Assembly: GCA_009761415.1 (NCBI GenBank)
Contig: QUOL01000004.1
Coordinates: 620,001-684,000 of the forward strand
DNA from: Sarcomyxa edulis
Taxonomy: Eukaryota; Basidiomycota; Agaricomycetes; Agaricales; Mycenaceae
Direction: 5' to 3'
Length of the DNA stretch: 64,000 nt
Every line of letters begins with the position of its first letter. Position 1 is the first letter of the stretch. Below the pieces are notes generated by a model, which saw only the letters and a list, made by a program, of their open reading frames with translations, was not told where the DNA came from and made no database searches. Positions 20,968 through 58,912 of this stretch are shown piece after piece. A program made the translations under genes and the position numbers.

Positions 20968-22217
20968 CACTTCAGTCAACCCCCCCCTCCCAACCTCTTA
21001 GGTTGACAAAATTGACAGAATATATAATCTAAGAGGTATGAGTGCCCATGGGCACGTGGTCAATCCCAAGATATCTTGGGCTTCCCCAAAATTCCTATGG
21101 GACTGTCTGTGGGTGCGGGATCTTGGGAACGTCCCATCTTTGGGTATGTCCTAGAAGGCTTGCCCATGTCCCACTTACCCATGGGACAGCCCATGGCTGC
21201 TGGGCTTCCCCAGAATGTCACAGGGTGTCTGGGGTCACTTTTCCATTTTTTTTCTGGCATTTGCGCTTAGCACCAGGTATCACTATTATGGTTCATTAGC
21301 ATCAGAGAGTAGTGCAGTACAAGGCCTGTCATCGTAAATCTTATGCAAGGTGTTCATAGCAGGTATAATATAAGGGGGACGGGTAGGCATCACAGGAGGA
21401 GTGCTTACCTCTCCATTGATGTCAAAATCCAGATCCAACTGATATTAGTTGTGGTCCCCAACCTCTGTCATGTCATTGCAGATAGGGAAATTGGTGGAGG
21501 AAGCAGAAGAGGTGAAGGATTGCTTCAGAGTGGTTATGGGCCAAAGACAGGGCCGACAAAGGTGAATGGGCATGTACAAGGGAGCACGGTGTGATCTAGA
21601 GATAGTGCTGTTCAGGCTGGTGTAGTTGTTATTGTGATTGGTGTTAGCGTTGGTGTTGTTGGTGTGGAGGATGGTATTGGAAACAGATACGGCTAGACTG
21701 GGCGTTGGAGAGACAGTGTTGTTGGAGAGGGGCTGACAACAACGATTGGCAAGTTTACCAGAAGATTGGAAGGTGAGAGATGGTGCTGCTCGCAAGGGTT
21801 TGGAGGTGGAAAAGATTATCGAGCTGATTGAGAGAGCCACTGCCTGTGAGTATTATTGTCTGAGTGTAGACAGAAAGGGATCGATGACAACTATGGTTTT
21901 GTCGTCTCCATACGGATGAATTAAAAACACTCCTATGTACACTCATTGCTGTTGTTGTGGCTAAAGACTTGATTGATTTTGCCTGCTAACGACTTTGTGT
22001 GTCCTTATTAGGTGTTGGGCAATGATCAAAGATTTGTCAGAGATCTCTGTTGACGGCTCTGCGTGTGTTGTGTGAGGAGAGTGATGACCTGCTGGTGGTA
22101 ATACTGCTGAGTTGGACTTTGGGATAACTCGCTGTTGTTGACGCAGGCCAAGTAAATGACTACCTCTATGATTCAAGCTCTCAACATGGCTTATTATACC
22201 TTCATTCAACATGTCTT
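20968..22217 (-). repeat. Left terminal inverted repeat of the giant element
   Basis: Inverse of 57762-58912. It contains the outer CACTTCAG terminus, the pair CCTCTTAGGTT / AATCTAAGAGG (about 21000-21040) and short palindromes (GCCCATGGGC, CCCAAGATATCTTGGG, CCCATGGG) from 21045 to 21230. Inward, both copies carry a decayed frame described at 57771. Confidence 0.92.
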
Positions 22218-22580
22218 GTGTGTATTGTTTGGGACCTCCCAGCCAATGATTGGGACATTCCCAATGATCAATGGGATGTCCCAGCCAACGATGGGACGTC
22301 CCAAGGATTTACGGGATGTTCCCCAGAACTCCGTGGGACGTCCTGGCTGTAGAGATGGGAACTCCCAGATCATCTTTGGGAGGTCCCAGACAGGCAAATG
22401 GGACATGATGCTGGTGTGGGACCTTCCCATGTCAGATGGGGATATCCCACATATACCATGGATGCTCCCATGACATAAGTAGTATTCAATCAGGGAATTG
22501 GGGAACATCCTACCAATGCCCAATATTAATTGATGGGAGCTCCCACAGTAATATGGATATTCCCTACACTTGATGGGAGT
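22218..22580. repeat. Array of TGGGAC-GTCCCA palindromes, left inner side
   Basis: About a dozen imperfect copies of TGGGAnnTCCCA, for example near 22236, 22258, 22282, 22300, 22340, 22365 and 22385, separated by 7-14 nt of unrelated sequence. Dense short palindromes next to a transposon end are typical of transposase-binding sites. Here it is an inference. Confidence 0.75.
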
Positions 22581-22610
22581 ACCCATCCATGTCTTGTGTC
22601 AGTCTTGTGG

Positions 22611-23055
22611 AATTCTTGAAAGTTTTGTGCAGTCTAGGCTTGTAGAACAAGACCAATGCCTTAGAACCAGAGAACAAGAGATGTGCCTTGAAGGCAGAGT
22701 CTTTTTGAGGTAATGCCAGAATAAGATAAGTTTTTCAGGATCGGTAGACAAAGAGATCTGGTTTGAAATGCTTGGTGTATGGGGTGGTAGAATTAGTTTG
22801 AACGCAGTACAGTTTTGCTAAAAGGTTCTAGTATTATATTCCTTTCTGGTGCAGTGGTAAAAGTGTCCGAAAACTTCAAGTGTTTGAGCCTCACTTACTG
22901 CATTTGGTTTTGGACCTTTAGAACACCAAAACAATGATCAAGTATACATATGATGCACATGTGACGTGTGGCATGACCATGTCATGCATGGACACATCAC
23001 GTGGCATTTTAAAAGGCCGATGTGACTCATTTCAATGGCAACATCTGATCGCCCA
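22611..23055. other. Interior of the giant element without a recognised gene
   Basis: AT-rich, short frames only. It separates the palindrome array from the 54-bp repeat block. Confidence 0.4.
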
Positions 23056-23390
23056 GAACTGGTTAACAAGAGACGTACAAGAATCCCAGAACAAAATTGA
23101 TCTCCCAGAACCAGAACAAAATCAATCTACCAGAACTGGTTAACAAGAGACGTACAAGAATCCCAGAACAAAATTGATCTCCCAGAACCAGAACAAAATC
23201 AATCTCCCAGAACTGGTTGACAAGAGACGTACAAGAATCCCAGAACAAAATTGATCTCCCAGAACTGGTTGACAAGAAACGTACAAGAATCCCAGAACAA
23301 AATCGATCTCTCAGAACTGGTTGACAAGAAACATACAAGAATCCCAGAACAAAATTGATCTACCAGAAGTGGTTGACAAGAGATGTACAT
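23056..23390. repeat. Tandem repeat, unit about 54 bp (some 79 bp)
   Basis: Six repeats of CCAGAACTGGTTnACAAGA followed by GACGTACAAGAATCCCAGAACAAAAT-type sequence. Two units carry an extra 25-bp CCAGAACCAGAACAAAATCA insert. Identity between units is high, so the array is recent. Confidence 0.88.
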
Positions 23391-23594
23391 CAAAAGCAAA
23401 CTCTTGTTGAATAATTTAGAATCCGTTGACAATAGGTGTGCCTTAGACGCCTAGTCTTGTGGAATGGTCATGTATTGGTGGACAAGAGACATGTCTCAAA
23501 CGCAAAGTTTCATTATATTCCAGACGGTCATTACATAGTGTCATCTGATCACACAATGTATTTCTAACTATTCTGACAAATATATGATACCCAA

Positions 23595-24605: not shown

Positions 24606-25088
24606 TGTGGTGGTCGTACGACTAGTCCCACAAATATTTGAGGACACGATTCGAGTCTGACGAGAATCTGACGGGCTAAGATCTAATGGGGACGGGAGTC
24701 TCACGAGACGTGCTAAGTCCAGGCAATCCGTGGACAACGTACACGTCTCCGTCTTCTCAGGCAATCCGTGAGAAGAGAGACTCGGACCGTCCTACGGATA
24801 GATCGCAGAAGATCAGCTTCGACACTCCTATTATAGCACTTACCTGAGTAAAGCCCCTGCCCGCAATTCCAGTCTAAGGCTGTAGATTGAGGCCCTTGGG
24901 CAGTTGGGGATGATGATGGTAAGATAAGAGTGATGTTATTCTTGCGTCACAGCGCGTTACACAGATAGGTAGAGAATATGAAATAGAATCGTGACTGGTC
25001 GTGACGCTCGGAATATCGAGTCTGAGAGTAAGAAAGTGAAACGTATCCAAAAGAAGAATAGGAAGAAAGTAATTGTATATTCGCCACA
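24606..25088 (-). repeat. 3' LTR of the gypsy element
   Basis: 483 bp, matching 41724-42206. It carries the hairpin pair described at 24717-24776. Confidence 0.95.
24717..24776 (-). promoter_or_regulatory. CGGATTGCC hairpin pair in the gypsy LTR
   Basis: In the sense (minus) direction, TCTTCTCA-CGGATTGCC-TGAGAAGA (8-bp stem, 24752-24776) and GTCCA-CGGATTGCC-TGGAC (5-bp stem, 24717-24735) lie 16 nt apart. The same pair is at 41835-41894 in the other LTR. The loop equals that in the 7.7-kb element, in the same RNA sense. Confidence 0.75.
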
Positions 25089-25103
25089 AACCCCCCCACT
25101 CTT
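25089..25103 (-). promoter_or_regulatory. Gypsy polypurine tract
   Basis: AAGAGTGGGGGGGTT abuts the 3' LTR. Its first bases overlap the TGA stop codon of the 875-aa ORF. Confidence 0.85.
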
Positions 25104-27730
25104 CAGGCCTCGATAGGATCCCAAACTTCCGGAACGGCGAGGTCACTGAGAGCACCGCGATTCCAAGTTTCCTTGTAACCCGTCTGAAGACGCGTCAAGG
25201 CTTCCGAAAGTACCGCCGTCGTAACCACCTTCTCCGGAGCAAATTCCCCACGATTATCTGAACGGAAGAATTGGGCCCAATCGCCCGGACTACGTGACTC
25301 GGCAGCGCCATTCTCCATCTCCAAGTGAAGGTTGTTGAAGATCCGCTCACAGTCTTCGTTCCACTCCCCGCTGTAGTGACGACAGGATGCTAGGAGGATC
25401 CTCTCGTCCGGCCATAGAGTGCGGTCCGTCAAACGGGATCCCGTTCCTCCTGCGGTGTACCCCACGACTGTTTTCAACTCGTCGGGTGACATCTCGTCGC
25501 ATCGGAAGAAGAGGAAGCTTTCCTTGTCGGACCAGCCACGCTGATGCAACGTGACCTGAATAGAGGGTCCATACATGAATTCCCGCACCAGTCTAAGGCC
25601 GCTGAACTTGCGAGCAATCCAAGAGTACGGACCGCCCAGACCGATAAGAGCCCGAGCATGAGGGCGCTGCAATACGTCCAGTAGATTAACCTTATACTGT
25701 CGGTACAGCTCGTCGCTGGGCAATGCGGTCGATAAAGCCCGGCTCGGGGCGCCGGTCGAGTAGTAAACGTCGGCGACGAAGTCGCGAGTTTCGATCCCAG
25801 GCGGCAAGAAAATGGCGTTGTCCTTGGGATCAGTGCAGATTCGGAAACGTAGGCCGTGCTCGATAGCGGTGACAAGGACCTTCCTGATATCATCGACCTT
25901 CTCCCAGCAGTTGGCCCAGTAGCGCATTCTAAACTCGCTGCTGGGTTCGACGTAAAGGTAGCCGTAGCGTAACAGATCGGCGCGCCAAACCCAGGAAGCA
26001 GGGATCGAGAACGTGGAGCCTGTTGCTACCAGGGGACGACCCCATTCCCTCAGATCTTCCAGGAAGGCCGCCTTGCCCGCGTAGTGTTCTTGTCCCGAGG
26101 GAGGAGGAAGCGCGACGCGAATAGTGCCCCGTAAGGGACCTAGATGCAAACGATCCGCTAGTTTGTGCGAGGAAGTCATCCGAGGTGCTGCCATGGCGTT
26201 TACCCACGAAGTCGGAGCTGGTTTACCCACCTCCAGACTCCTTGAGCTGCTCGAGCTGTCGCGGTCCGATTCCCGAGCACTCCTTCTCTGAGCCCTCGTC
26301 TTTCGTTTCTTGCGACGTTTCTCGGACAAGGGTTCAGGAGGCGGAGGTCGCGGAGGGTTATTGTCTCCCATGACCACGTCCTCCTGAGACTCTGCAGAAT
26401 CAGGATCAGTGTAACCGAGGCGGGAGTCGATAATCGCTTTGTCGAGAGCTCGAGCCGACAACTCGACCAACGATGGCAGAGGCTCCTTCGTAAGCAAAAG
26501 TCCGGTTTCCAGAGAGTATACCTGTCCCGGCTGGGGAGCGTACCGAGCCTTGTAAACTTCTCTAATGACCGTGACATCGTCCTCGTCCAAGGTGGCGGTG
26601 GTGAAGTCAATGTCGCTGCTACGCAGCGGGCGCGATCGCCAGAACAGCACGACGTTCTGACCTTCTTCTTCCAAAAGGGCGTAATGGTAACGGTTGAAGT
26701 AAGCGTCCACTTGCATATCGTTCGATAATGGACGTCGTCCCCAGCCCGGGAAGTCGGCTACGGCCGAAGTGTACTGCAGTCCTTCCGGCACTGGAGAAGC
26801 TCTGAAGCGAGGAGTTGGGTTTCTTTTACGCCCCAAGTGATCATACTCCTTTAGCCCCCAGAACTTATCCAGGAATCCCGGGATCTGCGCCGCAAGCCAC
26901 CCGCTAGTGGATCCCGTTGTCATCAGATAATCGCGATAAGCGTCGTACATGACGGGCGAGTACAGATGGAAGCGCGGGTCCACCATCTCTACGATCGTCC
27001 ACGGGTAGAACACCGGGACGTCATTCTTAATGAGATGGGCAATGTTGATCGATTTCCAATCGCGGGCTAGATCGATAAGTACCCCACGGCGGCGACGATT
27101 GCGTATAGGAAGCTCTTCAATGGTATCAATGATTGCGGAGCGCAGTCCCTCTTTCCAATCTCCCGCCGAGTTAACCCACCACGAGAGAAACCCGATGCTC
27201 GACAACGCGCTTCGCTTGGCTGTGGCCGCGGCTATTTCGACGTCGAGGGCTGAGAGATACTCGTAGACAAAGCGGGTGTGGTCCACTCCTTCGGGTCGGG
27301 GGGTATTGCGACCGTACTCGGTTCCTGTCTGAATCGCTAAGCAGCAAGAATCCAGATCGACGAGAAGAGTCTTCATCGCCATAGCCCACTTGGAGGGCAT
27401 CTGGTACTTCATTCCCCGATCCACCGGTTCGGGCATCACTGACCGGTTCATGTCCAGCAGCCCTTCTCGATAATCTTCCAGATGGACGGGAATCCAAGCC
27501 TCCCAGTGTTTGTTGAGACGATGCCAGTTGGGCTCCAGCGCTGAGTCCATTTCAAGCAGGACGCCGGTAGGGCCGACATCAGACGAGCCGATCTCCTTGT
27601 CTTTATACTCGTAAGCCTCAAGAGGTACGCATTGCCCTCCCGCATTGTACTCGAGCCAATGTTCGTTGTTGATGACATGCACCGAAGGGAGCACGATTTC
27701 AGCACGCGAGTTGATGAAGAATTGATCCAT
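25103..27730 (-). CDS. Extra ORF downstream of pol in the gypsy element, 875 aa
   Basis: Uninterrupted ATG-to-TGA frame in the position where an env gene would sit, on the same strand as gag-pol. I see no signal peptide, membrane segment or furin-like site, so it is not a typical envelope protein. Features include a folded N-terminal half (LIDLARDWKSINIAHLIKND, FYPWTIVEMVDPRFHLYSP), a basic Ser-rich linker (about residues 480-520, KRRKKRKTRAQRRS) and a C-terminal half with GYTAGGTGSRLTDRTLWP and SGEWNEDCERIF. That last pattern occurs in uncharacterised basidiomycete proteins I associate with large retroelements. Two CGGATTGCC hairpins lie 22-86 bp upstream of the start. It may be a nuclear or particle accessory factor; the function is unknown. 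Confidence 0.8.
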   Translation of the reverse strand: MDQFFINSRAEIVLPSVHVINNEHWLEYNAGGQCVPLEAYEYKDKEIGSSDVGPTGVLLEMDSALEPNWHRLNKHWEAWIPVHLEDYREGLLDMNRSVMPEPVDRGMKYQMPSKWAMAMKTLLVDLDSCCLAIQTGTEYGRNTPRPEGVDHTRFVYEYLSALDVEIAAATAKRSALSSIGFLSWWVNSAGDWKEGLRSAIIDTIEELPIRNRRRRGVLIDLARDWKSINIAHLIKNDVPVFYPWTIVEMVDPRFHLYSPVMYDAYRDYLMTTGSTSGWLAAQIPGFLDKFWGLKEYDHLGRKRNPTPRFRASPVPEGLQYTSAVADFPGWGRRPLSNDMQVDAYFNRYHYALLEEEGQNVVLFWRSRPLRSSDIDFTTATLDEDDVTVIREVYKARYAPQPGQVYSLETGLLLTKEPLPSLVELSARALDKAIIDSRLGYTDPDSAESQEDVVMGDNNPPRPPPPEPLSEKRRKKRKTRAQRRSARESDRDSSSSSRSLEVGKPAPTSWVNAMAAPRMTSSHKLADRLHLGPLRGTIRVALPPPSGQEHYAGKAAFLEDLREWGRPLVATGSTFSIPASWVWRADLLRYGYLYVEPSSEFRMRYWANCWEKVDDIRKVLVTAIEHGLRFRICTDPKDNAIFLPPGIETRDFVADVYYSTGAPSRALSTALPSDELYRQYKVNLLDVLQRPHARALIGLGGPYSWIARKFSGLRLVREFMYGPSIQVTLHQRGWSDKESFLFFRCDEMSPDELKTVVGYTAGGTGSRLTDRTLWPDERILLASCRHYSGEWNEDCERIFNNLHLEMENGAAESRSPGDWAQFFRSDNRGEFAPEKVVTTAVLSEALTRLQTGYKETWNRGALSDLAVPEVWDPIEA

Positions 27731-27751
27731 CCTGCTAGCTTCCAGATTTCC

Positions 27752-27816
27752 GTCTTCCAGGCAATCCTTGAAAGACTCAATCGGCCTCAGGAGGAACAGT
27801 CAGGCAATCCGTGACT
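27752..27816 (-). promoter_or_regulatory. CGGATTGCC-type hairpin pair upstream of the extra ORF
   Basis: Sense direction: AGTCA-CGGATTGCC-TGACT (27798-27816, perfect 5-bp stem) and GTCTTTCA-AGGATTGCC-TGGAAGAC (27752-27776, one A-C mismatch). The position suggests a subgenomic start or splice and packaging signal for the extra ORF. Confidence 0.7.
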
Positions 27817-28286
27817 ATCTAACCCTTCTGAGGAGCTGGGGGGAGAACGGGAAGAAGGAGGTTATCGCGTTGAATTGAGGCTTTTATGATTGTTGCGACT
27901 TCCAATTTCCAATTTGCCACTCGCCGCATGACACGTATAGGTTCCGTAAGTTCCCTCGGTTCCGAAGTCGTGATAGGCCTTGGTCGCGTGGTAGGGAAGA
28001 ATAGGGTGTTTCCCAGTTCGATGCGTTCGAGAGGCCGGGGAGTCAACCGAGTCGACCAAGACAGAGGAAAGCGGCCGAGTTAGAACCTGAGAGGGAGACG
28101 AAGGATGTTGAAGCGAAGAGGCGAAGGCAAAAGAAAAGAAAGTAACTATTAATTTGGTAAGGGGGAAAGAAGATGCATAAGAAGGATGGAAGAAAAGAAC
28201 AATCGCAAAATGTGAAAAAATAAAACAACTAGATAGTACAACGAAAGAGAGGAACGGGTATACAGAGTTAGTACTCTCCTTTGTCC
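27817..28286 (-). other. Spacer between pol and the extra ORF
   Basis: About 470 bp between the original pol stop (28287) and the hairpins. No frame or splice pattern is supported. Confidence 0.5.
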
Positions 28287-28344
28287 TCATCCTTCGGAGG
28301 GTAAGACTTGGTTCTGACTTTTCCGATAACGTTCCAACGCCAGG
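28287..28344 (-). CDS. Last codons of gypsy pol, cut off by the hAT insertion
   Basis: On joining 33671 to 28344 (one copy of GGGGCGTT kept) the pol frame continues NAPLALERYRKSQNQ and stops with TGA at 28287. The original protein therefore ended about 20 residues after the insertion point. Confidence 0.8.
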
Positions 28345-28698
28345 GGGGCGTTTAAGCCAGAGCACGAGTCCGGCTCTATCTGCCGGTACCGGCGGATAGA
28401 GCCGTGAGAAATCTGGCGGGTCGGGTGTCAAGATATAACCCGACCCGCGGCATCCGAACCTGTACGGATCTCGGTGTAGCTTTGAGAATTTTGCATACCT
28501 GCTGCAGGTACCTGGCATCCGCTAGTGGAAATTTGTCTCTCGAGAGGCTCGTCTTAGAGATATGAAGTTGTATATTTTACCTAAGAGAAAGCTCTGACAA
28601 ATTTGTGAATAATCAAAGGTCTGGTATCCCGCAATATTGAAAGTTCAACTAGAAGTAAGACATAGAAAGCGGTGACTCGTAGGTACTAGGTAGGAAAA

Positions 28699-29740
28699 CT
28701 AGATAAGTGGCGGCAGCTCTGAATCTGAAATGTCACTGTCTTCCGGCTCATAATTCCACCCTAACAAGAGTCTCGCCTCACGGGCTACATCAACGACAAC
28801 CCGCTCTATCAAGGAGCGTACGGGATTGAGTAAGGTCAGAGTCTGTGACGCGACACATCAATATATGATACAATAAGACAAAAAAAGAAGCTTACTCACC
28901 TCGACACGCGTACACACCTGCGCTGCACAAGCAAGAAGTTCATCGAGGCCAACGCGATTTGCAGCATCAATTACTTTGACAAATCTTCGAAATTCTGCGG
29001 AGATATAGTTGCTCGGCTCCAACGAGGTCGACGTGGCCCAGAAATTTGAGACAGCTAGATTGAGAGCTTCCATGCACAACATAGTATGTGAGAAGGCGAG
29101 TATGGGTAGAGAGAATTCCCAACGAGTTGTTGAAGCAAATGGACGAAGAAGGCGATATGTTTCGATGTACGACTGACTGTTGTCGCTGGTGATGAAGTTG
29201 AAGGGCCCGACAATCATTGGAACTGCCTGTCTCCTTGTAAGATACAAAAGAGAAAGAGAAACTAGACACGTACAATGTGACGATTCATTTTCGATGCTGG
29301 AGCAAGTGGGAATCGAGAGGGAAGCTTGAAGAGCGAGGTTACGTCGCAAAGACGTGGCTTTCTGGCATACCAGATATGGGAGATAGACGATCCATTCTTG
29401 AGAGATGTGCTGGCAGAGTCGAGGCCATCGATGAAGCCTGAGGATGATATATTTGAGGGGTTGAAAAATGCACGGCACCAGAGGTCCGTTGTTTGAGCAG
29501 GACGCGTACCACTTGCAGTACGTATCTGGTCCAAGTGTTGGAATTTGCCGTTCTCGAATGGACTGCAAGGCATTAGATCGAGATAGGGCACAGGGTTGAT
29601 AATGCCTTGCCGACTTACCGCTGAACTAGAACTACGTTCGCAAAAATTGACCCAAATGATGCTCGGAAGCCCATGAAGTAGCCTGGAGACCATGTCCCTT
29701 GCAAGTAAGGCCCACTATTTGCAGCCGAGGCAGCCGACAT
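28699..29740 (-). CDS. Spliced passenger gene of the hAT element, 293 aa, unknown
   Basis: Four exons (29740-29619, 29562-29274, 29226-28900 and 28842-28699) join in phase through GT-AG introns of 47-57 bp and end at TAG. The N-terminus is MSAASAANSGPYLQGTWSPG. The third exon reads MIVGPFNFITSDNSQSYIET...NRVGLDELLACAAQVCTRVE; the last has SLIERVVVDVAREARLLLGW and an acidic tail (EPEDSDISDSELPPL). No zinc finger, helicase, nuclease or membrane motif is evident. It is divergent to the transposase with 671 bp between starts and lies wholly inside the hAT ends. It may be a captured host gene or an element-encoded helper; I do not recognise the family. Confidence 0.7.
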
Positions 29741-30411
29741 AGAGATTTTGTACTTGGAGATCGATTTATGAAAACTGCGCCCGCGTTGACTTTTTTGACA
29801 GGGTGGGATACCTGAAACTTGGAAGATTACTTACATGGTGATCACAAGGTGCCCGTGTATCCAATCTTGATGCATGTGTCCATGAATTGACTGAGGAAAG
29901 AGGACGCTCGATAATCGATGTACTTGAAGTTTGGAAGAAGGGTCCGTTTGAAGATGTTTATTTTAGAAGGCTATAGGTGCGCGTGGGATTTGCAGCTAGT
30001 TTATCAAGCTCAAGCTCAAGCGCCGTTCTCACAGGCTGAGAGCGCTTGATGCGCACTGGGGGCTGCTTGACATTGCCGGATATTCTAGGTTCACGGCTCA
30101 CTCACAATCGACGATTCTAGCAAGGATCCGTGGATCACATCCTGAGCCTGAGCTGTCATGACGCATAGTGATCGACTCGGATCTGTGATTCTGGGTCTAC
30201 GTTGAAACTGGTACGCTGTATCCACGATATATTTTTCTGAAATGCAGCTGACTGCTATCCTAGATAATTGTGAATGTCATCTCCACTCGTAGCAATTAAT
30301 TAGCCGAGTTTTCGACCGTTAAATACCCCACCTCATTCCTTCCAAGATACGACACAACTCCTCTTCTTTATTTCGTCTCTCGTATATTTGACTACCGTCC
30401 TTCCCTGCTAC
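29741..30411. other. Divergent intergenic region of the hAT element
   Basis: 671 bp between the two start codons, no gene. Presumed to hold both promoters. An AGCTCAAGCTCAAGCGC / GAGCGCTTGA pair is seen near 30005-30050. Confidence 0.5.
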
Positions 30412-47114: not shown

Positions 47115-47204
47115 TGGATAGACCACGGAAGAAAAAAGTGGGGGAAGACGACGAGAACAGCGCGAAGGAAAAAAACAATTACCTGGCGACTTTATTTTGA
47201 GAGC

Positions 47205-47345
47205 GAGCGAATGAGTGCGAGAGCGAGGGGGAGAGCGAGGGCGAGGGTGAGAGCGAGAGCGAGAGCGAGGGGGAGAGCGAGAGCGAGAGCGAGGGTGAGA
47301 GCGTGGGCGAGGGCGAGAGCAAGAGCGAGAGAGAGAGAGACGGAG
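47205..47345 (-). repeat. GAGCGA/GAGGGC purine-rich microsatellite
   Basis: Long run of GAGAGCGAGAGCGAGGG-type hexamers, ending in (GA)n. It is open in several frames only because of its composition. Confidence 0.9.
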
Positions 47346-47439
47346 GGAAAGAGAGAGCAAGGGAGAAAAACGATGAGAAGAAACAATGGAAAAAAAAAGA
47401 GCCCGCAGGCAGTTTGTTTGTTTGTTTGGTCACGTGCTT

Positions 47440-48170
47440 GAGTTAGTCACGAGAAGCCAGACGCGTCCTTGTGCAGTGACGCGTCCGTCTGTAATAGAGT
47501 ATCCTGATGTAGATAAGAAGGTTAAAATATAAGCTAAGAATGAGTTGTACAAATTACTTACTAGCTACTGTTTTGTTGCATTAGTATCAATGTTCCGATT
47601 CAATTCAGCTCCATATTGTTCGAAGGATCGAGGCACAATACTGAAAAAGGTGAGATACACGCATATGTTGCTTGAATATCTTGACAGGTCCGTGCAATGG
47701 AAGATAAAATCAGGAAAAGCTGTAGAATTTGGGTGCGGCGAGACGTATACAGACTCCGTAAGTCCAAACGTCAAACTCCAATGAACCTACGAGGAAAAGC
47801 AAAAGCGTGCAGACAACCTACACATCGAGATCGCTGCAAAAACAAGCGCATAGAAAGGTGACTATCTAAAGATCCCAGCACTTCAAGGAAGCACTGGTAT
47901 TCTAGCACAGAGTGAACGAGTGCATGAGCGATATTGATACCATGGGATTCTGGAAGAGGAGTTTGCTTGCAAATATCATGCGACCGTGGTCAGTCTTTGG
48001 ACAAGCTGAAATTGTGTGATGTTAGGTCAGAAGGGAGAATCAATGCAGTAAAATATATACCTTGAAATGATGTTACGATCAATGGTAGCAAAGCAAACTA
48101 TCTAGAACGTTGGAGCGAGATCGAACACAAGAACCTGCAAGGTGAACGGAGTTAGTGGTAGTCGAGGTCA
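47440..48170. other. Intergenic DNA between genes A and B, nothing identified
   Basis: No supported gene. Short frames only. Confidence 0.45.
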
Positions 48171-48187
48171 TACAGTGTCTGAAACAA

Positions 48188-48252
48188 CGGTGATACAACC
48201 CCACAACAGACATAAGAGGCGATATCTTGGGGCACCGACAGAAGATGGACCA
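48188..48252 (-). repeat. Decayed triple-hairpin repeat
   Basis: GGTGATACAACCCC, ACAGACATAAGAG and TATCTTGGGGCACCGACAG keep the order of the other copies, but stems are broken and the third hairpin is missing. A neutral-decay comparison for the intact copies. Confidence 0.6.
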
Positions 48253-48716
48253 GAGAAGGAAAACATAGAGAGGCAAAATAAATTCGAACCAGAAATGACT
48301 CACAAGGAATTAGACTCTCGGAGAAACACAGAGCAAAAAACAAGCAACATTGCGAGTTTGACTCTGCGCTAGCGTTAGTATCCGTGGAGCTAGGCATTGA
48401 GTTACCACGTACGATTCAACCTGGTTCTGCAGGGAGACTGACACAGCTGAAAGACAACAAGATCGAGGACGTGCGCAAGAACGAGATTGAGAGCGAGAAC
48501 ACAAGAGAGTAAGGAAATCAAGGCTGTAATGATGATCAATGTCAGCATATATTGAGCTACAAGACAACAAGATTGAGAACGTACAAAGGGTTTGAAACAA
48601 GAGTGAGACAAAGAACACGACAGAGTGAGCAACAAAGACTCGGAATCTATATTATAGTGATGATTGTTAGATGCTGAACTTCAGATAGTTTGAAAAAAGA
48701 TGAGTGGGTGATCCAA

Positions 48717-48821
48717 CCCCAAGACAGACAACGGAGTCAATGTCTTGGAGGCTACAACGGACAATGGAGTCAACGTTGTAGCGATCGAGGGAGTGGACAG
48801 AAGAGTCAACTCTCCCTCGAT
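48717..48821 (-). repeat. Triple-hairpin repeat, copy F3
   Basis: CCAAGACA/TGTCTTGG (48719-48748), GCTACAACG/CGTTGTAGC (48751-48782, perfect 9 bp), ATCGAGGGAG/CTCCCTCGAT (48784-48821, perfect 10 bp). Middle and third stems differ from F2 by paired changes that keep the helix. Confidence 0.87.
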
Positions 48822-49277
48822 AGGATAGACCACGAGAGGGGGGAGAAGGAGAGAAAAGACAAGATAAATTTACTTACCTGTGCTTCAGACATAAATACTA
48901 ATCGACTTGAGAACGGCGACAATGAAGACGGCGACGAGAGAGGGCGACGACGACCACAGAAGGTGATGGTGATGGTGATGAAGAAAAAAGATGAAGTGGC
49001 GTTACGGCGGTTCGAAGTTCAAACTTCAAACTTCGAACGCATGCCTAATTGGGTTGGAAATGTTGACACGGCCTAGTTAATAGTTTCTGGGACATTTGAG
49101 CCAGAGTGTAAACCCAAGAAATAAAATGAGTATTATTCCTGAATTTAATGAAGAGAACATACCTGTGTTTGTGTTGTTGGTGTTGTTGAGGACGCGACAC
49201 TTGGTGCAAGATTGACAGGACGCGACCAGTCATGTGCCGGCAAGTTCTGACTCCGCTTTGACTCCGCTTCGGAGCTC

Positions 49278-49484
49278 TTGTTTGTGTCGCCAAGTCCCTC
49301 CCACGTCTTTATCACCACCACCACCACCACCATCACCACCATCACCATTGATCCCTCTATCCTCCTCACCTCCCTCATCGTCGTCCCTCTTGCCGTCCTC
49401 TTTGTCCTTATTCTCGCTGCCACTCTTTACGTCGTTCTCGTCACGTTGGGTTTCACTACTCTGCCGGTTATCTTGACATTGTAA
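49278..49484 (+). other. Possible 5' exon encoding a hydrophobic segment
   Basis: A 68-codon plus-strand frame with Thr repeats, then about 35 hydrophobic residues (SLIVVPLAVLFVLILAATLY). It stops just before a GTATGT donor-like site at 49492. It may be an upstream ORF, a leader exon of gene B, or chance. I cannot connect it in phase to the supported gene B exons. Confidence 0.3.
49313..49350 (+). repeat. CAC/CAT trinucleotide microsatellite
   Basis: (CAC)n interrupted by CAT, upstream of the gene B 5' region. Confidence 0.9.
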
Positions 49485-49550
49485 AAAGGTATGTCTTTTT
49501 TTTCTTGTCTTTTTTTCTCTTTCCCCTCCCTTTCGTCGCTAGTTCATCCA

Positions 49551-49655
49551 AGCCAGGAGGAGTTGACTCTGCTGTCCACCTCCTGGCTTACCACAAAGTT
49601 GACTCTACTGTCCATTGTGGTCCCTGAGACATTGACTCCTTCGTCTGTCTCGGGG
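49551..49655 (+). repeat. Triple-hairpin repeat, copy R1
   Basis: AGCCAGGAGG/CCTCCTGGCT (49551-49588, perfect), ACCACAA/TTGTGGT (49590-49621), CCCTGAGACA/TGTCTCGGGG (49622-49655, one T-G pair). Loops AGTTGACTCTGCTGTCCA, AGTTGACTCTACTGTCCA and TTGACTCCTTCGTC. Confidence 0.88.
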
Positions 49656-49852
49656 TTGGATCACCAGCTGATTTCTCCAATTTCTTCTCCCTCCGTTTGA
49701 CACATACTGACATACTCTACGTTGCAGTCCATTTCTCTCCATCTTGCTGTGCCTTTATATCACGCTCTCGCTTTTCCTTGGTCTTGCTGCTGTCAGTTCT
49801 TCCGGTAAGTCGTTGTTCATTTTTCGTTTCCCTTTCCCCTCTGGTGTATCCA

Positions 49853-49957
49853 AGCCAGGAGGAGTTGACTCTGCTGTCCACCTCCTGGCTCACTACGACG
49901 TTGACTCTGCTGTCCGTCGTAGTCCCCGAGACATTGACTCCTTCGTCTGTCTTGGGG
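49853..49957 (+). repeat. Triple-hairpin repeat, copy R2
   Basis: AGCCAGGAGG/CCTCCTGGCT (49853-49890), ACTACGACG/CGTCGTAGT (49892-49923, perfect 9 bp), CCCCGAGACA/TGTCTTGGGG (49924-49957, one G-T). The middle stem differs from R3 at two positions on each arm, both compensated. Confidence 0.9.
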
Positions 49958-50154
49958 TTGGATCACCAGCTCATTTCTCGAATTTTTTATTCGGTTCGAA
50001 GGATACTGACTTACCGTACATTGCAGTCGCTTTCTCTCCATTTTGCTCTGCCTTTATATCTCTCGCTCTCGCTTCTGCTCGGTCTTGCTGCTTTTAGTTC
50101 TTCCTCGTAAGTCGTTGTCCGTTCTTTGTTTCTCTTTTCTCTCTGGTTTATCCA

Positions 50155-50259
50155 AGGCAGGAGGAGTTGACTCTGCTGTCCACCTCCTGGCTCACCACAA
50201 CGTTGACTCTGCTGTCCGTTGTGGTTCCCAAGACATTGACTCTTTTGTCTGTCTCGGGG
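50155..50259 (+). repeat. Triple-hairpin repeat, copy R3
   Basis: AGGCAGGAGG/CCTCCTGGCT (one mismatch, 50155-50192), ACCACAACG/CGTTGTGGT (50194-50225, perfect), TCCCAAGACA/TGTCTCGGGG (50226-50259, one mismatch). Followed, as in the others, by GGATCnCC. Confidence 0.88.
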
Positions 50260-50371
50260 CTGGATCGCCAAGGTTGTCTTGATTATTTGACTTTGAATTT
50301 TTCTAACGGTGCAATCTGTTCCGTAGTTGGTCTTTCTCTCCCGTCACAACTCCTTCTCGCATATAATACAG

Positions 50372-53285
50372 TCGCAGAACTGGTACAACCCGCAACGGCC
50401 CACGTTCCCGCGTTTTCATCGGCCGGACGAGAAACGTAAGTTGCAACTTTGTCCACTTGGAATTGACTAAATCCAAACAACTCTTTATTCAGGCCATTAC
50501 AATGCGCTTGACGCCAGAGTGCTTGCGATCAGTCCTTGGCTCTCTGACCCTGTACTCCCTAATTCGATTGTCCGGGAATGGCACATCATCACATCGCCCA
50601 ACGCCGAGACAGTTCCCCGTGTTTTTTACGGCCCTGCAATTCTTCAGGCTCGAGCGGACGGTCGCTTTGCGCAGTACGAGTTCTCTCGGTGGCCACAATG
50701 GTGGACCAGAACATACCAACATACATGCGTTCTCCCTTACCCCACGAAGGATCCCAAAAATCCCCTCTTTATGGCTTACTGGACTCCTACCGTTGATGAT
50801 CTTCATCTCGATCTCAACAATGCATTTCGCATGACCATTGGTGTTCTGAGAAAATCGAGGCTAGAGCAGCTAAAGCCTTTGTACGAGGAGGCTTGTAAGA
50901 AGTTTGATGAGTGGCATTGTCACCAAAACCCAAATATCAGCTACCTCTACCATCCGCACAACGCCATTCGTTTTCTCTGGACACAACTGATGTACGCCCC
51001 GATGACTCCCGCCGAGCTCGTTCTGCAGATTGCAGAGTTTCAAAGATTGTACCTAGATATCGTCTCCTTCGTTAGATTTTACACCGTCTATATCCCCAGG
51101 TTGAAGGACCAATTTGACGAAACGGACTGTCCACCCGCTGAGGCCGACTTGTTGGGTTGTATCACGAGCGATCCGTATGTTGTCGCCAACATGATGAAGA
51201 TGCGCATTCCCGTGTGGCTCTCACGCCGGAAGCACGAGTTACCTCCCCGCATGAACATCAACAAAGTCGTTGACGAGCTTGCTCCCGTCGACATCGTAGG
51301 CGTTCACTTCCGCGATGAGGCTGGAAAATCAGCGCCCTTTGACATTGTCTACTTTGGTGATGCCACAGAGAGTCTTGGTCGAGCAATCCGCCGAAACGGC
51401 CGAAAATATCCTGGCCTTAGTCTGCGCGATGACGAGCCTGCACCCGCTCGGATGATCCCAGTCGGTCAGAGTATTCGCGAAGCTCCAACCCGGCTTGATG
51501 GTGACCCATTACATTGGGACTCCTTCACCTACGAACTATGGAGCGGAGAAGCCAGGCCAAATCGAGGTATTTATTGCCAATTTGAATGCTATCTACGTGA
51601 AACTGACTTGTTGCGGTTGTCTTGGTAGCACCTCCTCAACCTTTGACATTCTCTGCTGAGCCCCCGACTTGTGCTCCTGTGAGGCTGGCTGGATCGAATC
51701 CTGCCGTGGATGTTGACGCGCCTAGCATCAATCCAGGCAACGAAGATGACTTAGATGTTCGTCCTTCTAAGTCTGGCTCACGCCGCCAAGCACCTTCGCG
51801 AGCTATGTCAAAGTCAACGTCGAAGTCAACGTCAACGTCAACGTCGAAGTCGAGCACCTCTATTTCCAAGTCCTTCACAGTGTCTCAGCCTCCTCCAGGC
51901 ACAACGTCGGCTTTCACGGGCAGATCCTCCTCCACCGTCTCTAAAACTACATCCCATTCTGTTGCCGTCTCCCAATCTGGAGACACAACGTCTACTCCCA
52001 CGCGCGATATCGTTTCGACCGATTCCATTGAGGAGTCCCCTTCGAAGCCTCCAAAGAAGAAAAGGAAAACAAACAAAGGAAAGGGGAAGGCTCATGAACA
52101 TCCTGGTCGGAACAAATTCCAGGAAATAGTGGGAAAAACGATGCCCCCTGCCATTCCTGCTTGGGCTTTGGGGCTCTCAAAGGTGAACACGACAAATCGT
52201 CCAAGCGTCGAGACCACCAAACAGATGCCGACAACGGGATATCTCTTCCCCGAGCACGGTTTGTTCATTTCGACCAAAAATCGACTTCGCTACTTCATCA
52301 ATTGGATTGCAGCACGTAGCGCGGTTTTACTCTCGATGTGGGCTGTGAACTTTGTTCCTCGAGCAGTCTGCAACCAGGATTGGAGGGCTTTCTTAGGCCG
52401 CTTTTTGCATCTTGCACCCCAATCAGCGGTTGCTCCTGTTTTGCGACGTCTCAGGGATGATTCTAGCCTGCTGCCTGACGAAGATGAAGAAGGCGATGAA
52501 GCTGACGAAGGCTACGGAGCAGACAACGAAGAAGTCGACAAATCTGACCATGCCGATGAAGCAGATGAAGCTAACGTGTCTGGCGACAAGAATGCTGTGC
52601 TTCCCCCTCCCCCTCCCCCTCCCACCACCCGCCGCAAGACACACAACGCCGCGCGCGTCGCTCGTGTCCATGACCTGTTCGGTCAACAAACCACCGTCCC
52701 CCCGCAAGTCGCTTGGAACGGCACTGTCTTTGAAACCTACGATGAGGCCGCCATGGACGAGGCTCTGACTCCCGAGATCGAGTCCGAGATTCTTTGGGAG
52801 TTGTGCGAGTTGAACTTCCGATTCGAACTGCTCGCTTTGGATCGTCATCTTAGGCCGGACTTGTGGGTAGAAGACAACGCCGGGACACGCAACGAAGCCA
52901 TCCAAGACGTCTTTTTCGGAGATACCGGGTACATGGTAGAAATGCCAGATAGGAACCGAGGACTCGCTGCTGTCCACTTTGCTGAGAAGGCCCCCTTCCT
53001 CCATTGTCTCCGACTCGTCATGTCGGACTGGCCCATGTCGCATGGTACGCGCCGTCTCTTCAATGGGGTCCGTCTCCCTTCGTTTGCGGAGATGTCCAGG
53101 ACAAACTGTTCGAAGAAAATCAGCGACGTCGAAAAGATGTTGGCACAGACATATTGCCAGATCTTCTACAACACGTTTGGTCGCGCTGCAGTCTGCCCTC
53201 GCCAGATCCCGTCTCACTTGGCTTGCTCGCCCGCGACTTAGCTGGACATTTAGATCGAACTGACATTTGTATACGTACATACTAA
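50372..53285 (+). CDS. Gene B of the giant element, unknown basidiomycete family, about 915 aa supported
   Basis: Exons 50372-50435, 50493-51566, 51629-53044 and 53092-53285 join in phase (GT-AG introns) and stop at TAA. Earlier exons are likely but unresolved, so the true start is unknown. The N-terminal region reads NWYNPQRPTFPRFHRPDEK and HYNALDARVLAISPWLSD. It is followed by FLWTQLMYAPMTPAELVLQI and TSDPYVVANMMKMRIPVWL, a pattern I have seen in uncharacterised Agaricomycete proteins. A (KSTSTS)n Ser-rich linker and a basic PPKKKRKTNKGKGK (probable nuclear signal) divide the protein. The second half has an acidic stretch (DEDEEGDEADEGYG), then ILWELCELNFRFELLALDRHL and an Arg-rich tail. 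No enzyme motif is evident. It lies between gene A and the transposase, in the same direction as the latter. Confidence 0.78.
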
Positions 53286-53691: not shown

Positions 53692-56600
53692 ATGTCTTTC
53701 CGTACTCCCAATCTGAGACGACGCTTCACAGCCTCCACTTCACCTCACAAGATAGACCCCTTTGCTATGGTTCCTGCTCTAGAACATGGACGGCAGCGTA
53801 TCCAAGGAGTAACAATGTTTCCCAGGACGGACCTTTATGCTCCAGAGGGTCGGTTTATTCAGCCCGTCACTCGAAGTCCCAGCAGGAGCTCGGAGAACTT
53901 ACTGGACTTTGATGATGAAGCCGGTGAGCCCGAGATAATCAATGCTGCTGTTCTTAAACCACACACAAGTTCTGCGAGCAAAAAGAGACTTAAACAGTGG
54001 AATACATGGAAGAACGAAGTCATTCCAGAGCTTTTGCTTCCCTACCTCCGTGTCCTTTCTGAGTCGCAGTCATTGCGTTCCATGGAACGGTGCGAAGCTC
54101 TCCACTGCCAATGTGGCACTACACGCAGGAAGATTTCAGTGACTTGTGTTTATTTCGACAGTGAGTGAAGTACTGTCTGGTCTTTGGTCTGAGGACTGAC
54201 ATAAATGCAGAAATAAAGACTTTAACCATCTGTACATGTGCTCCCGCCCAGCTTCTTCTATCGCGTGGCCTATTTCCTTGTGCTCCGCTTGAGCCATCGC
54301 TTGCCGTCGACATCAACATGCTCGATTTTGTCAATCATCTCTTTGTTCGGACTGCTCCCAATGTTACAGCTTGGAGTGATGCGGTGGAGACCTTTCTCTC
54401 GGACCGTAATTATACTCTACAGGCTAGAGTGAGTCCTTGATCATGTTTATGAAATATCATGTTTTGATTGAGGTCATTATTCAGAATACTCTTCGAAGGA
54501 GATTTGGCAATGCCTTGCTATGGTATTCCTACTTAGGAAACGAAACCGTTAAAATGGTGGATAAAAAGATCAACCATGTTCGAGCAACTTTGATTGAGGA
54601 CAAAGAGGAACAAGAGGAACAAGAAGAAGACTTGCAGGATGAGAACGAGTCTTGTAAGCTTTACCATTTTTTACATGAAACTTGACTTAGACTGTTTGCA
54701 GCTAATTCTTCCATCGCACGTGACAATCTCAAAAGACCAACCGAGTACTTGAGGCAGCGGTGCCCACTGTGCTTTGGTGGTGACTTGGTGCATGATCCAA
54801 ATGCAATGTAAGTGTTATTTTCACGCACAGTGTCTACGCATTCAATGACTTGCTTCCAGCGCTGATGTCATCGTAAGCTCTGATGCTTGTTTCACCCAAT
54901 TGAGACGGAAAACCAGCAAAGGCGGCTATCGTGACCCTCCATATTTCCATTCCAACACGGTTTTTCTCACGGAAGAGGAAGTGAAGGCCATGGAAGCCAA
55001 GGTTTCTGAGCAGAGGCCCTCCCGACCTTCACAGAAAAAGAAAGCTGGTAAAGCCAATGCTGATAAGGAAGACGATTATGAACCTTCCATGAAGGTTCCA
55101 ACGTCTGTTCTGGAGGAATGTAACGAATCATTCACAGCTGCTGATGAAAGAAGGAAGAAGGCCAGCACTCAATTTTTTGCGGACACAGGTGTCATGGCTT
55201 TGCTTTGCAGACATGACCGGGTCTTGTGGTTGGCCAATATGACTTCAGCGGGAGAGAAGCAGCATTATTCTTTGGCTTTGATTCAGAAGCTATTTGAGAA
55301 CATACCTTCTGATATGACTGTGGGCTGGCTTTATGACATCGGATGTCAGATACACAGGAGCTGCGCAAAGTGGGGTTTTCTGGATGAATACTTGGATCGG
55401 ATCACTTTTGGGATATCCGTCTTTCATGCGTACGGGCACCAGTGGCCCTGCCAATTGATTTATCATCCACGCAAGTGCAAAGGCTTTGGATGGTCAGATG
55501 GGGAAGGTTGTGAAAGGTTTTGGAGTGCGCTAAAGTTGCTTATCCCATCTTTACGGGTTTCTGGATATCACCACAGACTCTACGTGCTTGATACCCAAGT
55601 CAGGTATCTGGATGGCAAGTCGCTGAACAGTCTTGGTGATTGGCTGAAGCGGAAGTGGGAGGCTTGTCAGAAGCGGAAGTTGGCTGCAGAAACAGAGTTC
55701 TGTAACGCCAATACGGACGAGAGGGTCTCCAGAGATGATTGGGAGCTTTTGATCAGGGCAGAATGGAAGGCACAGGTCATCAAACAAACCAAGCCTTTGC
55801 AACGTGAGTATTTTGTATTTTCATGACAGACATGATTTCTTGATGCGTCTTTGACTCAAGGTCAATCGAAAGACAAGGCAGACAAGATTATTGAAGAGAT
55901 AATGACACTGGAAGATTGTCAGAAAGCGTACAAGAAGGAACTGGTGGACATTGAAAAGATGTTGGCTATTGGTGTGTATGAGGATGATATGGATGCTGTG
56001 GAGGCAAGCAGTCAACGGGACGAGGTTCAAGATAGAATCAAGAGTCTAGCTGAGACTCTGAAACGGAAGAGATCGGCACTTGGGGTTACTGGCAAAGCAC
56101 GTTTAGCTTCGTTGGTTGGAAACCAGTTCCTCAGGCTACGCATGAACGCACGCGCATTAAAGTCTCGCATTCGTGACCGTCTCAGACAGAGGAAGTTTGA
56201 ATTGGACCGTCTAGAACGCGCATACCGCAAGACTAGCAATGGTAAGTCTGATTGACTCAAATGACTGTGGTGCATGTCTTGATTGTATCCTGTTCAGAAA
56301 AAAAGCTTCACAGTCACACGGCTAGTCAGGTCAAAAGAAAAGAGCCTGGCATTGTTCAATTGGCTGCCAAGTACAACAAACTGTGTTCTGAAATGGCGAC
56401 TCTGAAAGCTGGAAAACAAGCACCACGAGGCGCAATCATACCCCCCCAAATCAACCGAGAAAAGCTTTTTGACTTGGATGTTGATGATGATATCTGGCAA
56501 GACATTGGGTTAGATGAAGCTACAGACGATGCCAATGCTGTTCCGTTGTGGCTTGGCGATGAATATGTTCGACAAGCGATCAAAAGTCTCTTGGAGTTGG

Positions 56601-57145
56601 ATCGTTGTGAGGAAGAGGAGATCCGCTTGTCAAAGGAGAGATGTTCCATGCAGGACTGGATGATGGAGGAGTGGGCATGCATCACCATTCTCATGAATGA
56701 ATGCAATGATGTTCATCTTGAATATCAACTCAAGTTAAGGGCGCAATCTCTTTCTAGGCTATGCGGAATCTGGAAGGCTAAAGTGATAGCCGTTGGGTGT
56801 TTTCACGACATGCCCAATTCATGGGGTCCATCACAACAGGAGATTGATAAGGCGATGAGTTTGGGTGCTGGGAGTGGGAATGACAATGACGACTCGGAGG
56901 AGGAAGATGAACAAGAACAAGCAGATTATGAAATGGAAGAAGAACTTATTGAAGCCATCGAACAGTTCACATTTACGGATGCATTGCAATCTGCGTATAC
57001 TACAACAGGACTTGACATCCCACGTACCTCTATGGTGTTTCAAACTCCGATTCACAGCAGAAACGTGTCACCTATTAAAGGAACACCAAACCGAGAAGGA
57101 TCACCAAGAAAACGTAACAGGATGCAAGACGAAGAGGAATTCTGA
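53692..57145 (+). CDS. KDZ (Kyakuja-Dileera-Zisupton) transposase
   Basis: Starts MSFRTPNLRRRFTAS at 53692 and ends at 57145 with several short introns (for example 54162-54212 and a donor at 54430). The N-terminal CxC zinc region is visible (CEALHCQCGTTRR, then CTCAPAQLLLSRGLFPCAPLEPSLAVD). It is followed by QRCPLCFGGD and the catalytic blocks VIVSSDACF (about 54858), VGWLYDIGCQ (55321) and FHAYGHQWPCQ with GFGWSDGEGCERFWS (55494-55525). This is the D-D-E arrangement of the family, with all three acidic residues present. A coiled-coil, charged C-terminal region follows (EDCQKAYKKELVDIEKML; acidic DDSEEEDEQEQ near the end). I saw no frameshift or premature stop, so the enzyme may be functional. 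It is the only transposase in the giant element and presumably cuts at the CACTTCAG ends. Confidence 0.95.
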
Positions 57146-57184
57146 TGTATATGTAATTGTATTGTTCTCGACTGGTTGGTTGGT

Positions 57185-57318
57185 GGATATTTATTGGCCT
57201 ATACCCGTGTTACCCACATGATTGCCATGGACTACCTCCTTAGTTGGTATTTATTTATCTATTGGCCCATACCCGTGTAACCCACATGATTGCCATGGAC
57301 TACATAGTTAGTTAGTAT
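57185..57318. repeat. Tandem duplication of about 75 bp after the transposase
   Basis: TTGGCCTATACCCGTGTTACCCACATGATTG-type sequence recurs 67-75 bp later with few changes, including GATTGCCATGGACTAC. Confidence 0.85.
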
Positions 57319-57399
57319 TGTTTTGGCTAACAAATATATCAAGTTGTTAGAAAGTGATGCATAAGTGATATTATGTTGTAGCAAGTGAGGCAATTTCTC

Positions 57400-57768
57400 T
57401 ACTACTCTGTGGGACTTCCCTAAATCAATGGTCAGGTCCCACATGATATTAGGGAAGCCCACGTAGTATGTGGAAGGAGTTAGGAACATCCCTGAAAGAT
57501 GTGTATCTTCCCAGGGAAGATATACATGTTCCCCGGGTAGACATATGTCTTCCCCGGGTAAAATATATATCTTCCCAATGGACCAAGGGCATGACTGGAT
57601 AGAGATAGTTTGTCCCCGGGTAGAGATAGTCTGTCCCCGGGTAGAGATAGTCTGTCCCCGGGTAGAGATAGTTTGTCCCTGGGTAGAGTGATGCTTCCCC
57701 GGGAAGAGTGATGTCTTCCCCGGGAAGAGTGCTACATTCCCTGGGAAGAGTGATATGGTACATATAAG
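57400..57768. repeat. Right inner palindrome array with 22-bp core repeat
   Basis: Variants of TTCCCCGGGAAGA, GGGACTTCCC and CCCACGTAGTATGTGG. From 57597 to 57684 a 22-bp unit (GTAGAGATAGTCTGTCCCCGG) repeats four times. It mirrors the position of 22218-22580 on the left, but its sequence has diverged. Confidence 0.78.
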
Positions 57769-58912
57769 ACATGTTGATTGAAGGTATAATAAGCCTTATT
57801 GAGAGTTCGAATCATAAAGGTAGTCATCCACTTAGCATGCGTCAACAACAGCGGATTATCCCAAAGTCCAATTCAGCAGTATTACCACTCGCAAGTAATC
57901 GCTCTCCTCACGCAACACACGCAGAGCTGTCAACAGATATCTCTGACAAATCTGTAATCATTGCCTCATCACCCAATAAGGACACAGAGCCAGCCATTAC
58001 CTTCTGTCTGCACTCAGGCAGAGACTCTCTCAATCACCTAAACAACCCATTTCTAGACACAACTCCCAAACCCTTGCGAGCAGCACCATCTCTCACCTTT
58101 CAATCTTCTGGTAAACTTGCCAATCGTTGTTGTCAGCCCCTCTCCAACAACACTGTCTCTCCAACGCCCAGTCTAGCCGTATCTGTTTCCAATACCATCC
58201 TCCGCACTAACAACGCCAACGCTAACACCATCACAATAACAACTACACCAGCCTGAACAGTACTATCTCTAGATCACACCATGCTTCCTTGTACATGCCC
58301 ATTCACCTTTGTCGGCCCTGTCTTTGGCCCATAACCACTCTTGAGCAATCCTTCACCTCTTCTGCTTCCTCCACCAATTTCCCCATCTGTGATGACATGA
58401 CAGAGGTTGGGGACTACAACCGATATCAGTCAGATCTAGACTTTGACACCAACATGGATATCAACACTCCTCCTGCAACGCCCCACCTGTTTCCCTCATG
58501 TTAGACCTGCTCTGTACACCTCGTATAAGATCCTTTTTCTTGTATACAATGACAGGCCTTGTACTGCACCACTCTCGGATGCTAATAAACCATAACAATG
58601 ATACCTGGTGCTAAACGCAAATGCTAGGAAAAAAATGGAAAAGTGACCCCAGACACCCTGTGACATTCTGGGGAAGCCCAGCAGCCATGGGCTGTCCCAT
58701 GGGTAAGTGGGACATGGGCAAGCCTTCTAGGACATACCCAAAGATGGGACGTTCCCAAGATCCCGCACCCACAGACAGTCCCATAGGAATTTTGGGGAAG
58801 CCCAAGATATCTTGGGATTAACCACGTGCCCATGGGCACTCATACCTCTTAGGTTATATATTCTGTCAATTTTGTCAACCTAAGAGGTTGGGAGGGGGGG
58901 TTGACTGAAGTG
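57762..58912 (+). repeat. Right terminal inverted repeat of the giant element
   Basis: Inverse of 20968-22217. It ends GGTTGACTGAAGTG at 58912 and is followed by the duplicated TAATAGA (58913-58919). Confidence 0.92.
57771..58504 (+). pseudogene. Decayed frame inside both terminal repeats
   Basis: The plus strand reads IPKSNSAVLPLASN, PLRAAPSLTFQSSGKLANRC and, after a frame change, SFTSSASSTNFPICDDMTEVGD. The left repeat contains the same words in the opposite orientation (22212-21445) with different breaks. Either a small gene was once carried in the termini, or the frame is a by-product of duplicated non-coding DNA. No start, domain or splice model fits both copies. Confidence 0.4.

Follow-up and report, generated by a model that had tools for sequence, protein, structure and literature searches.

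What kind of mobile element has settled in a 64,000-nucleotide stretch of the Sarcomyxa edulis genome (C34:620001-684000; 35.6 Mb in 40 contigs, designated here by C numbers), and do all of its parts belong together? This stretch, referred to as the window, contains a KDZ transposase gene, two large genes, A and B, and a series of structured repeats, enclosed by matching ends. The evidence gathered here makes it quite probable that they form a large three-gene cut-and-paste KDZ transposon, in which a leader with cloverleaf-shaped introns would place the element under its own control and whose related copies exchange modules.

The sequence CACTTCAGTCAACC occurs a single time on the + strand of the window (20968) and its inverse also a single time (58899–58912), and the heptamer TAATAGA abuts both ends on the outside, exactly as described in the initial annotation. 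Alignment of the termini revealed an outer inverted block (92.1% identity over 852 columns, 20967–21803 against 58066–58913) and an inner one (87.7% identity over 228 columns, 21998–22224 against 57759–57986), with an insertion between them at the left end. The inverted ends thus span about 1.2 kb, in agreement with the more than 1.1 kb first proposed. The left terminal inverted repeat is also found at the ends of the copies on C12 and C40 (see below), and the 18-base end CACTTCAGTCAACCCCCC has nine mismatch-free occurrences in the genome, every one of them at an end-repeat match. The unit is interrupted by a Ty3/Gypsy retroelement with gag-pol domains (reverse transcriptase, RNase H, integrase and chromodomain), which is flanked on both sides by AATAG when its long terminal repeats (LTRs) are read as TG..CA. 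The site of this insertion is uninterrupted in the C12 copy and in the larger (74.7-kb) of two C40 copies. The net length of the KDZ unit after removal of the retroelement is 20,339 bp, matching the earlier estimate of 20.3 kb. The part of the window from 20968 to 58912 is one KDZ transposon broken by a younger Gypsy insertion. The 17.6-kb Gypsy element also carries an extra reading frame of 898 aa (25106–27799) with no Pfam match.

Six complete copies, with both ends and a duplication, are present in the genome, namely that of the window and five others. All of them start with CACTTCAG and finish with CTGAAGTG (CAC..GTG inverted ends), and the duplication measures 7 bp in four copies, 8 bp in one and 6 bp in one. 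The smaller C40 copy (20.8 kb), whose terminal inverted repeats (1,677 bp) are 100% identical, forms a second subfamily together with the C21 copy (ends CACTTCAGGCGACC), and the C16 copy represents a third (ends CACTTCAGTCACCC). Additional incomplete copies are found on C21, C27 and C28. When aligned to the window, the larger C40 copy consists of a body of about 20.6 kb and two insertions of about 17.5 and 36.6 kb; these are probably LTR elements, since direct repeats of 1,749 and 244 bp, respectively, border them. Any length above the roughly 20 kb of the body is due to other elements that inserted into the transposon. KDZ genes are common in this genome (93 matches, assigned manually to 47 loci), which would be compatible with two or more smaller KDZ insertions framing an unrelated stretch by chance. 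The probability of this arrangement is practically negligible: independent smaller insertions are refuted by the five further complete copies, on C12, C40 (two), C16 and C21, where the same body and the same type of end are accompanied each time by a different, exact duplication. The single element proposed initially is thereby upheld, as is the joint occurrence of genes A and B between such ends, the same body being seen at the six bounded sites.

The unit holds one KDZ transposase, as had been annotated. A single KDZ domain (PF18758, E 7.8e-65, profile positions 2–217 of 217), free of stops in the window copy, lies downstream of a CxC1 cluster (PF18802, E 1.9e-6, 28.4 bits with a cut-off of 26.9). 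This domain has 823 relatives at E 0.001; the named proteins among the 120 listed belong to species that we take to be Agaricomycetes, and some of them carry CxC1. The element is a member of the KDZ superfamily because of its intact KDZ domain, the CxC1 cluster, the inverted ends and duplications in the 4–8-bp range. On the basis of ends, duplications and family, it most likely moves by cut-and-paste, by means of a CxC1-KDZ enzyme acting on long inverted ends.

Genes A and B had been described as two large uncharacterized genes with structured repeats. Neither gave a Pfam match at E 0.01, and the repeats are indeed present between them. The main frames of gene B between stops comprise 385 and 544 aa; its start is an ATG in the C12 and 74.7-kb C40 copies, and the methionine is also found in the smaller C40 copy. 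The exon parts of A, B and the KDZ gene compared between window and C12 are open, with ratios of nonsynonymous to synonymous substitution (dN/dS) of 0.16 for A, 0.06 and 0.19 for the first and second halves of B, and 0.10 for KDZ. The values with respect to the smaller C40 copy are 0.18 for A, 0.19 for the second half of B and 0.04 for KDZ, the first half of B being saturated at synonymous sites.

The term cargo-carrying, used in the initial annotation, implies that A and B are captured host genes, as in KDZ elements bearing TET genes or, conceptually, in Starships, and two large genes devoid of transposition domains between KDZ ends would fit that description. The distribution of these genes points elsewhere. 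Gene B is placed 1,342–1,847 bp from the transposase match at all ten KDZ loci where a single match extends across profile positions 2–217 (one of these loci has an internal stop), covering at least three subfamilies, whereas it accompanies none of the other 37 loci, its closest match there being 7,652 bp away; these positions derive from a DNA search, which may miss diverged copies. In word-limited searches of about 5.8 billion proteins, gene B has eight relatives at E 0.001 (50% to 26% identity), two of them with an organism name (Melanogaster and Paxillus), and gene A has at least two weak relatives (7,995 candidates); none of the relatives listed is named as a host gene. Within the genome, matches to A and B co-locate with cloverleaf repeats, KDZ genes or KDZ ends, the exceptions being A-like matches on C4, where one KDZ-type end lies at 204365, and some fragments at C21:68–70 kb. 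Since gene B is constant with the full-length KDZ gene, relatives are few and selection is mostly purifying, A and B look like genes of the element, and the description as cargo was abandoned as unlikely. Their constant company and the selection acting on them suggest that both would serve transposition or its control; a role as RNA-binding partner is a guess.

A closer look at the divergent leader between A and B revealed a 121-nt repeat, present three times on the gene A side and three times on the gene B side and always in the orientation of the gene downstream of it. The repeat is predicted to fold into a cloverleaf with a closing stem and three hairpins (a four-way junction), each of which would expose the loop TTGACTC-N4-GTC. 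Unconstrained folding placed three hairpins inside the closing stem in the eight copies tried (z -4.2 to -8.3). In an alignment of 24 copies (23 distinct) that was not fitted to the fold, 96.0% of the cells are paired and 16 of the 43 pairs are changed on both sides, with 85 doubly changed cells versus 29 in shuffles and 1–8 in slid controls. A second alignment, fitted to the model, contains 38 matches (31 distinct, E 1e-6, four from the third subfamily); here 30 of the 43 pairs and 137 cells are doubly changed, versus 35 cells in shuffled and 6–23 in slid alignments, and all five covariation measures lie above all shuffles. The cloverleaves of the third subfamily, located with the model in the C16 stretch L055, have different stems and an identical loop. 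Degenerate copies are also found, for instance at L032:2354 (78 bits) and L037:1207 (20 bits). Rfam gave no match up to E 1 for window positions 46400–50600, so the cloverleaf would be an RNA family without an Rfam match. Between A and B of the C16 copy ARAGORN called a tRNA-Thr with long arms (L055 2070–2154), a fold that may be another cloverleaf-like structure. On the B side, a small conserved hydrophobic frame (49260–49481) has its stop just before the first cloverleaf; its C40 counterpart is 74 aa long, counted from methionine.

The flanks of the cloverleaves resemble the borders of spliceosomal introns. Among 29 copies whose flanks were inspected, 23 were tested, two near-duplicates from C21 and four degenerate copies (three from L055 and one from C40) being excluded. 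All 23 have a donor-like site 33–67 nt upstream of the cloverleaf, against a rate of 5.9% in shuffled flanks. In 21 of them a branch site and then an acceptor come after the cloverleaf, the pair ending 44–64 nt downstream (15.3% in shuffled flanks). The implied introns measure 214–245 nt. The last putative intron of the A side ends just before the start of gene A, and therefore the cloverleaf introns would be leader introns. We infer that the cloverleaf segments are spliceosomal introns in the leader transcripts of A and B, and strand, position and covariation suggest a role of the cloverleaf as RNA in splicing. If so, a mobile element would here possess structured spliceosomal introns of its own.

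An action of the cloverleaf as DNA, in the form of an extruded cruciform that serves as binding or cleavage site of the transposase or as a hot spot of recombination or insertion, was also considered. One element copy is inserted exactly at the cloverleaf foot of another copy (C21:6688), a switch point of the cassette exchange described below falls within a cloverleaf, and the C21 copy occupies the centre of a palindrome of kilobase scale. However, each cloverleaf examined lies on the coding strand of the gene that it precedes; moreover, 21 of the 23 are found at a fixed distance between signals resembling splice sites, and A-C mismatches in the stems are rarer than G-U pairs. A DNA role is on balance doubtful, and an RNA is favoured over a DNA cruciform because G-U mildly exceeds A-C. 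In another scenario the cloverleaf would be an intron-spreading element (introner) whose copies simply increased in number within the transposon, in line with the many near-identical putative introns, some of them in 302-bp tandem units together with their exons. The tandem units account for the local increase, and a pattern made of the last hairpin and the closing strand matches 44 places in the genome (none with the reversed control), none of them farther than 3.84 kb from a match to A or B, although this pattern is too strict for diverged forms and leaves the C16 cloverleaves outside the 44. An introner thus appears very improbable.

Comparison of the copies showed that the leader is exchangeable. 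Outside the centre, window and C12 are 94–100% identical in 300-bp bins, save for three bins at 86–89%, whereas within the exchanged cassette the cloverleaves are 89.9% identical and the remainder 65.7%. The left switch (about 46667) falls within the first hairpin of the cloverleaf adjoining gene A. With respect to the 74.7-kb C40 copy, the same stretch of the window is 97–100% identical in all 100-bp bins but one (89%), length changes aside. The smaller C40 copy shows another distribution, with bins at 95–100% identity in 54209–57208, at 84–98% in 23061–24560 and at 69–89% in most of the remaining alignable part, several bins being unalignable. The swap of the whole leader cassette, together with a nearly identical transposase gene in subfamilies that are otherwise diverged, indicates recombination between related copies, one module at a time. 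A possible reason for the exchange of leaders is that it would let them evade silencing that depends on their sequence. These exchanges bear on how large transposons alter their regulatory part while the enzyme stays alike.

In the mechanism that we propose, the cloverleaf segments would be spliced out of the A and B leader transcripts, and the fold would bring donor and branch site closer together. Each intron would then present one loop three times over to a shared partner, in the simplest case a protein encoded by the element, A or B. Splicing would in this way be controlled by the element itself, and with it how strongly A and B are expressed and how much transposition takes place. More tentatively, and with less than even confidence, this may be a eukaryotic DNA transposon that controls itself by a dedicated RNA, its several introns, each with a four-way junction and three like loops, together making up a leader cassette that can be exchanged and that a protein of the element recognizes; copies would then differ in regulation and share enzyme and ends.

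Several points weigh against this interpretation. Splicing, expression and movement are deduced in it from the sequence. In the 24-copy set, one of the five covariation measures is no higher than in the shuffles (31 versus 32.0 for further pair types), and these copies were selected by the loop motif, which makes the invariance of the loop partly a matter of construction. The excess of G-U over A-C in the stems is mild (26 versus 13; 69 versus 54 in shuffles). The splice motifs were chosen after inspection of the flanks and the copies are related; at least three of the four degenerate cloverleaves set aside show no clear donor. As for the proteins, the window copy of gene B has no ATG at the start position used in other copies, the first half of B gave a dN/dS of 0.49 between the smaller C40 copy and C21 (11 differences, four synonymous and seven other), the KDZ domain of the C21 copy contains a stop codon, and structural models of gene B and of the end of gene A match no solved fold. 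Finally, an empty target site of the window copy was not found, its flanks matching the genome elsewhere only partially.

Features of the window and complete copies of the element in the genome
Feature	Position	Strand	Length	Remarks
Target-site duplication, left copy TAATAGA	20961..20967	.		Identical heptamer at 58913-58919
Left terminal inverted repeat	20968..22224	+		Blocks at 20968-21803 (outer) and 21998-22224 (inner)
Nested chromodomain-bearing Ty3/Gypsy element, foreign to the KDZ unit	24606..42206	-	17,601 bp	Identical LTRs, duplication AATAG
Gene A	43037..46489	-		Start 46489, main exon 43969-45759 (597 aa), 3' limit approximate; conserved blocks
Cloverleaf 1, A side	46559..46679	-		About 15 nt lie between the end of its putative intron and the start of gene A
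Exchangeable central cassette	46667..50650	.		About 70% identical to C12, both sides 99-100%; switch points approximate
Cloverleaf 2, A side	47000..47120	-		
Cloverleaf 3, A side	48707..48827	-		
Cloverleaf 1, B side	49545..49665	+		
Cloverleaf 2, B side	49847..49967	+		302-bp tandem unit
Cloverleaf 3, B side	50149..50269	+		
Gene B	50366..53241	+		Putative exons about 50366-50435, 50493-51571, 51619-53238
KDZ transposase gene	53692..57145	+		Split into several exons, with the CxC1 cluster inside 54165-54437 and the KDZ domain at about 54864-55613
Right terminal inverted repeat	57759..58912	-		Blocks at 58066-58912 (outer) and 57759-57986 (inner)
Target-site duplication, right copy TAATAGA	58913..58919	.		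Abuts the right end outside
C12 copy	C12:76857-97675		20,819 bp	Duplication CAATTCGA (8 bp)
C40 larger copy	C40:1060115-1134862		74,748 bp	Duplication CCACGAA
C40 smaller copy	C40:701876-722721		20,846 bp	Duplication TCCGACG
C21 reduced copy	C21:114294-129568		15,275 bp	Duplication TCCGGA, centre of inverted flanks
C16 copy	C16:56560-76362		19,803 bp	Duplication ATACTTC

Some copies display particular surroundings. The C21 copy lies in the middle of an almost perfect palindrome, whose 2,968-bp arms match at 99.97% and consist of the end repeat and at least 1.29 kb of flank; its 6-bp duplication TCCGGA is palindromic as well. The arrangement may reflect an insertion at the centre of a palindrome or a fold-back of the assembly. 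At C27:98969 and C28:13646, an element end, left in one case and right in the other, directly adjoins the right end repeat of other copies, and the site (CCTATGG) is the same in both, which may be a preferred target or the outcome of a rearrangement. In the neighbourhood of the window element, a pair of LTR-like direct repeats (449 bp, 99.6%) surrounds a 2,186-aa frame with no Pfam match (10932–18611), and Helitron-type proteins flank the element on both sides (4329–7460 and 59914–63999; Helitron_like_N, DUF6570 and PIF1 helicase).

KDZ elements are common in basidiomycetes, and few complete ones, with ends and duplications, are reported in the literature searched. Six bounded copies in three subfamilies of a 20-kb, three-gene form make the partners of the enzyme testable. 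A close likeness is seen with two Kyakuja families of Laccaria, described in the part of the report consulted (Kojima 2025, PMC12730594) as having 7-bp duplications, CA..TG ends, a TET/JBP gene and no terminal inverted repeats. A KDZ transposase, CA..TG termini, a 7-bp duplication (in four of the six copies) and an extra gene between the ends are shared. In contrast, the terminal inverted repeats here span 0.85–1.7 kb (0.85 kb in the window and C12, 1,677 bp in C40), and genes A and B and the cloverleaf leader are not described in that part of the report. No TET/JBP match was found with Pfam in the scanned exons of A and B; a genome search with PF20515 was also empty, but its control gave none either, and PE-type TETs are stated to be very distant (PMC12730594). 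The lack of terminal inverted repeats stated for these two Kyakuja families does not apply here, so the element is left as a Kyakuja-like KDZ element. Zisupton, of the same superfamily, has an 8-bp duplication (as cited in PMC12730594), like the C12 copy and unlike the four copies with 7 bp.

According to the sections available, KDZ1, KDZ2 and KDZ3 of Cryptococcus, which have been observed jumping, measure 9.2–11 kb, with terminal inverted repeats of 139–241 bp and 4–8-bp duplications (PMC12810828). They share with the present element the CxC1 and KDZ domains, inverted ends and range of duplications, and differ in being about half its size, with shorter repeats. The epithet giant, given at first to an element thought to be far above simple KDZ size, is thus retained for its roughly 20 kb only as a matter of degree. 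Starships and other giant elements are likewise large and carry several genes, Starships having a tyrosine-recombinase captain and measuring 42–606 kb according to a paper on Tremella, in the portions consulted (PMC13066641, PMC6431247). The enzyme here is instead a KDZ transposase, and no Pfam match to such a captain was seen in nine scanned reading frames of the KDZ unit, small exons lying outside the scan. Introners and stwintrons are also families of similar spliceosomal introns in fungi, as far as the excerpts describe them; the matches found here, however, lie beside two genes of a single transposon clade and combine a four-way junction with three similar loops. The element works like other cut-and-paste transposons, and what sets it apart is its three-gene body, the length of its ends and its leader.

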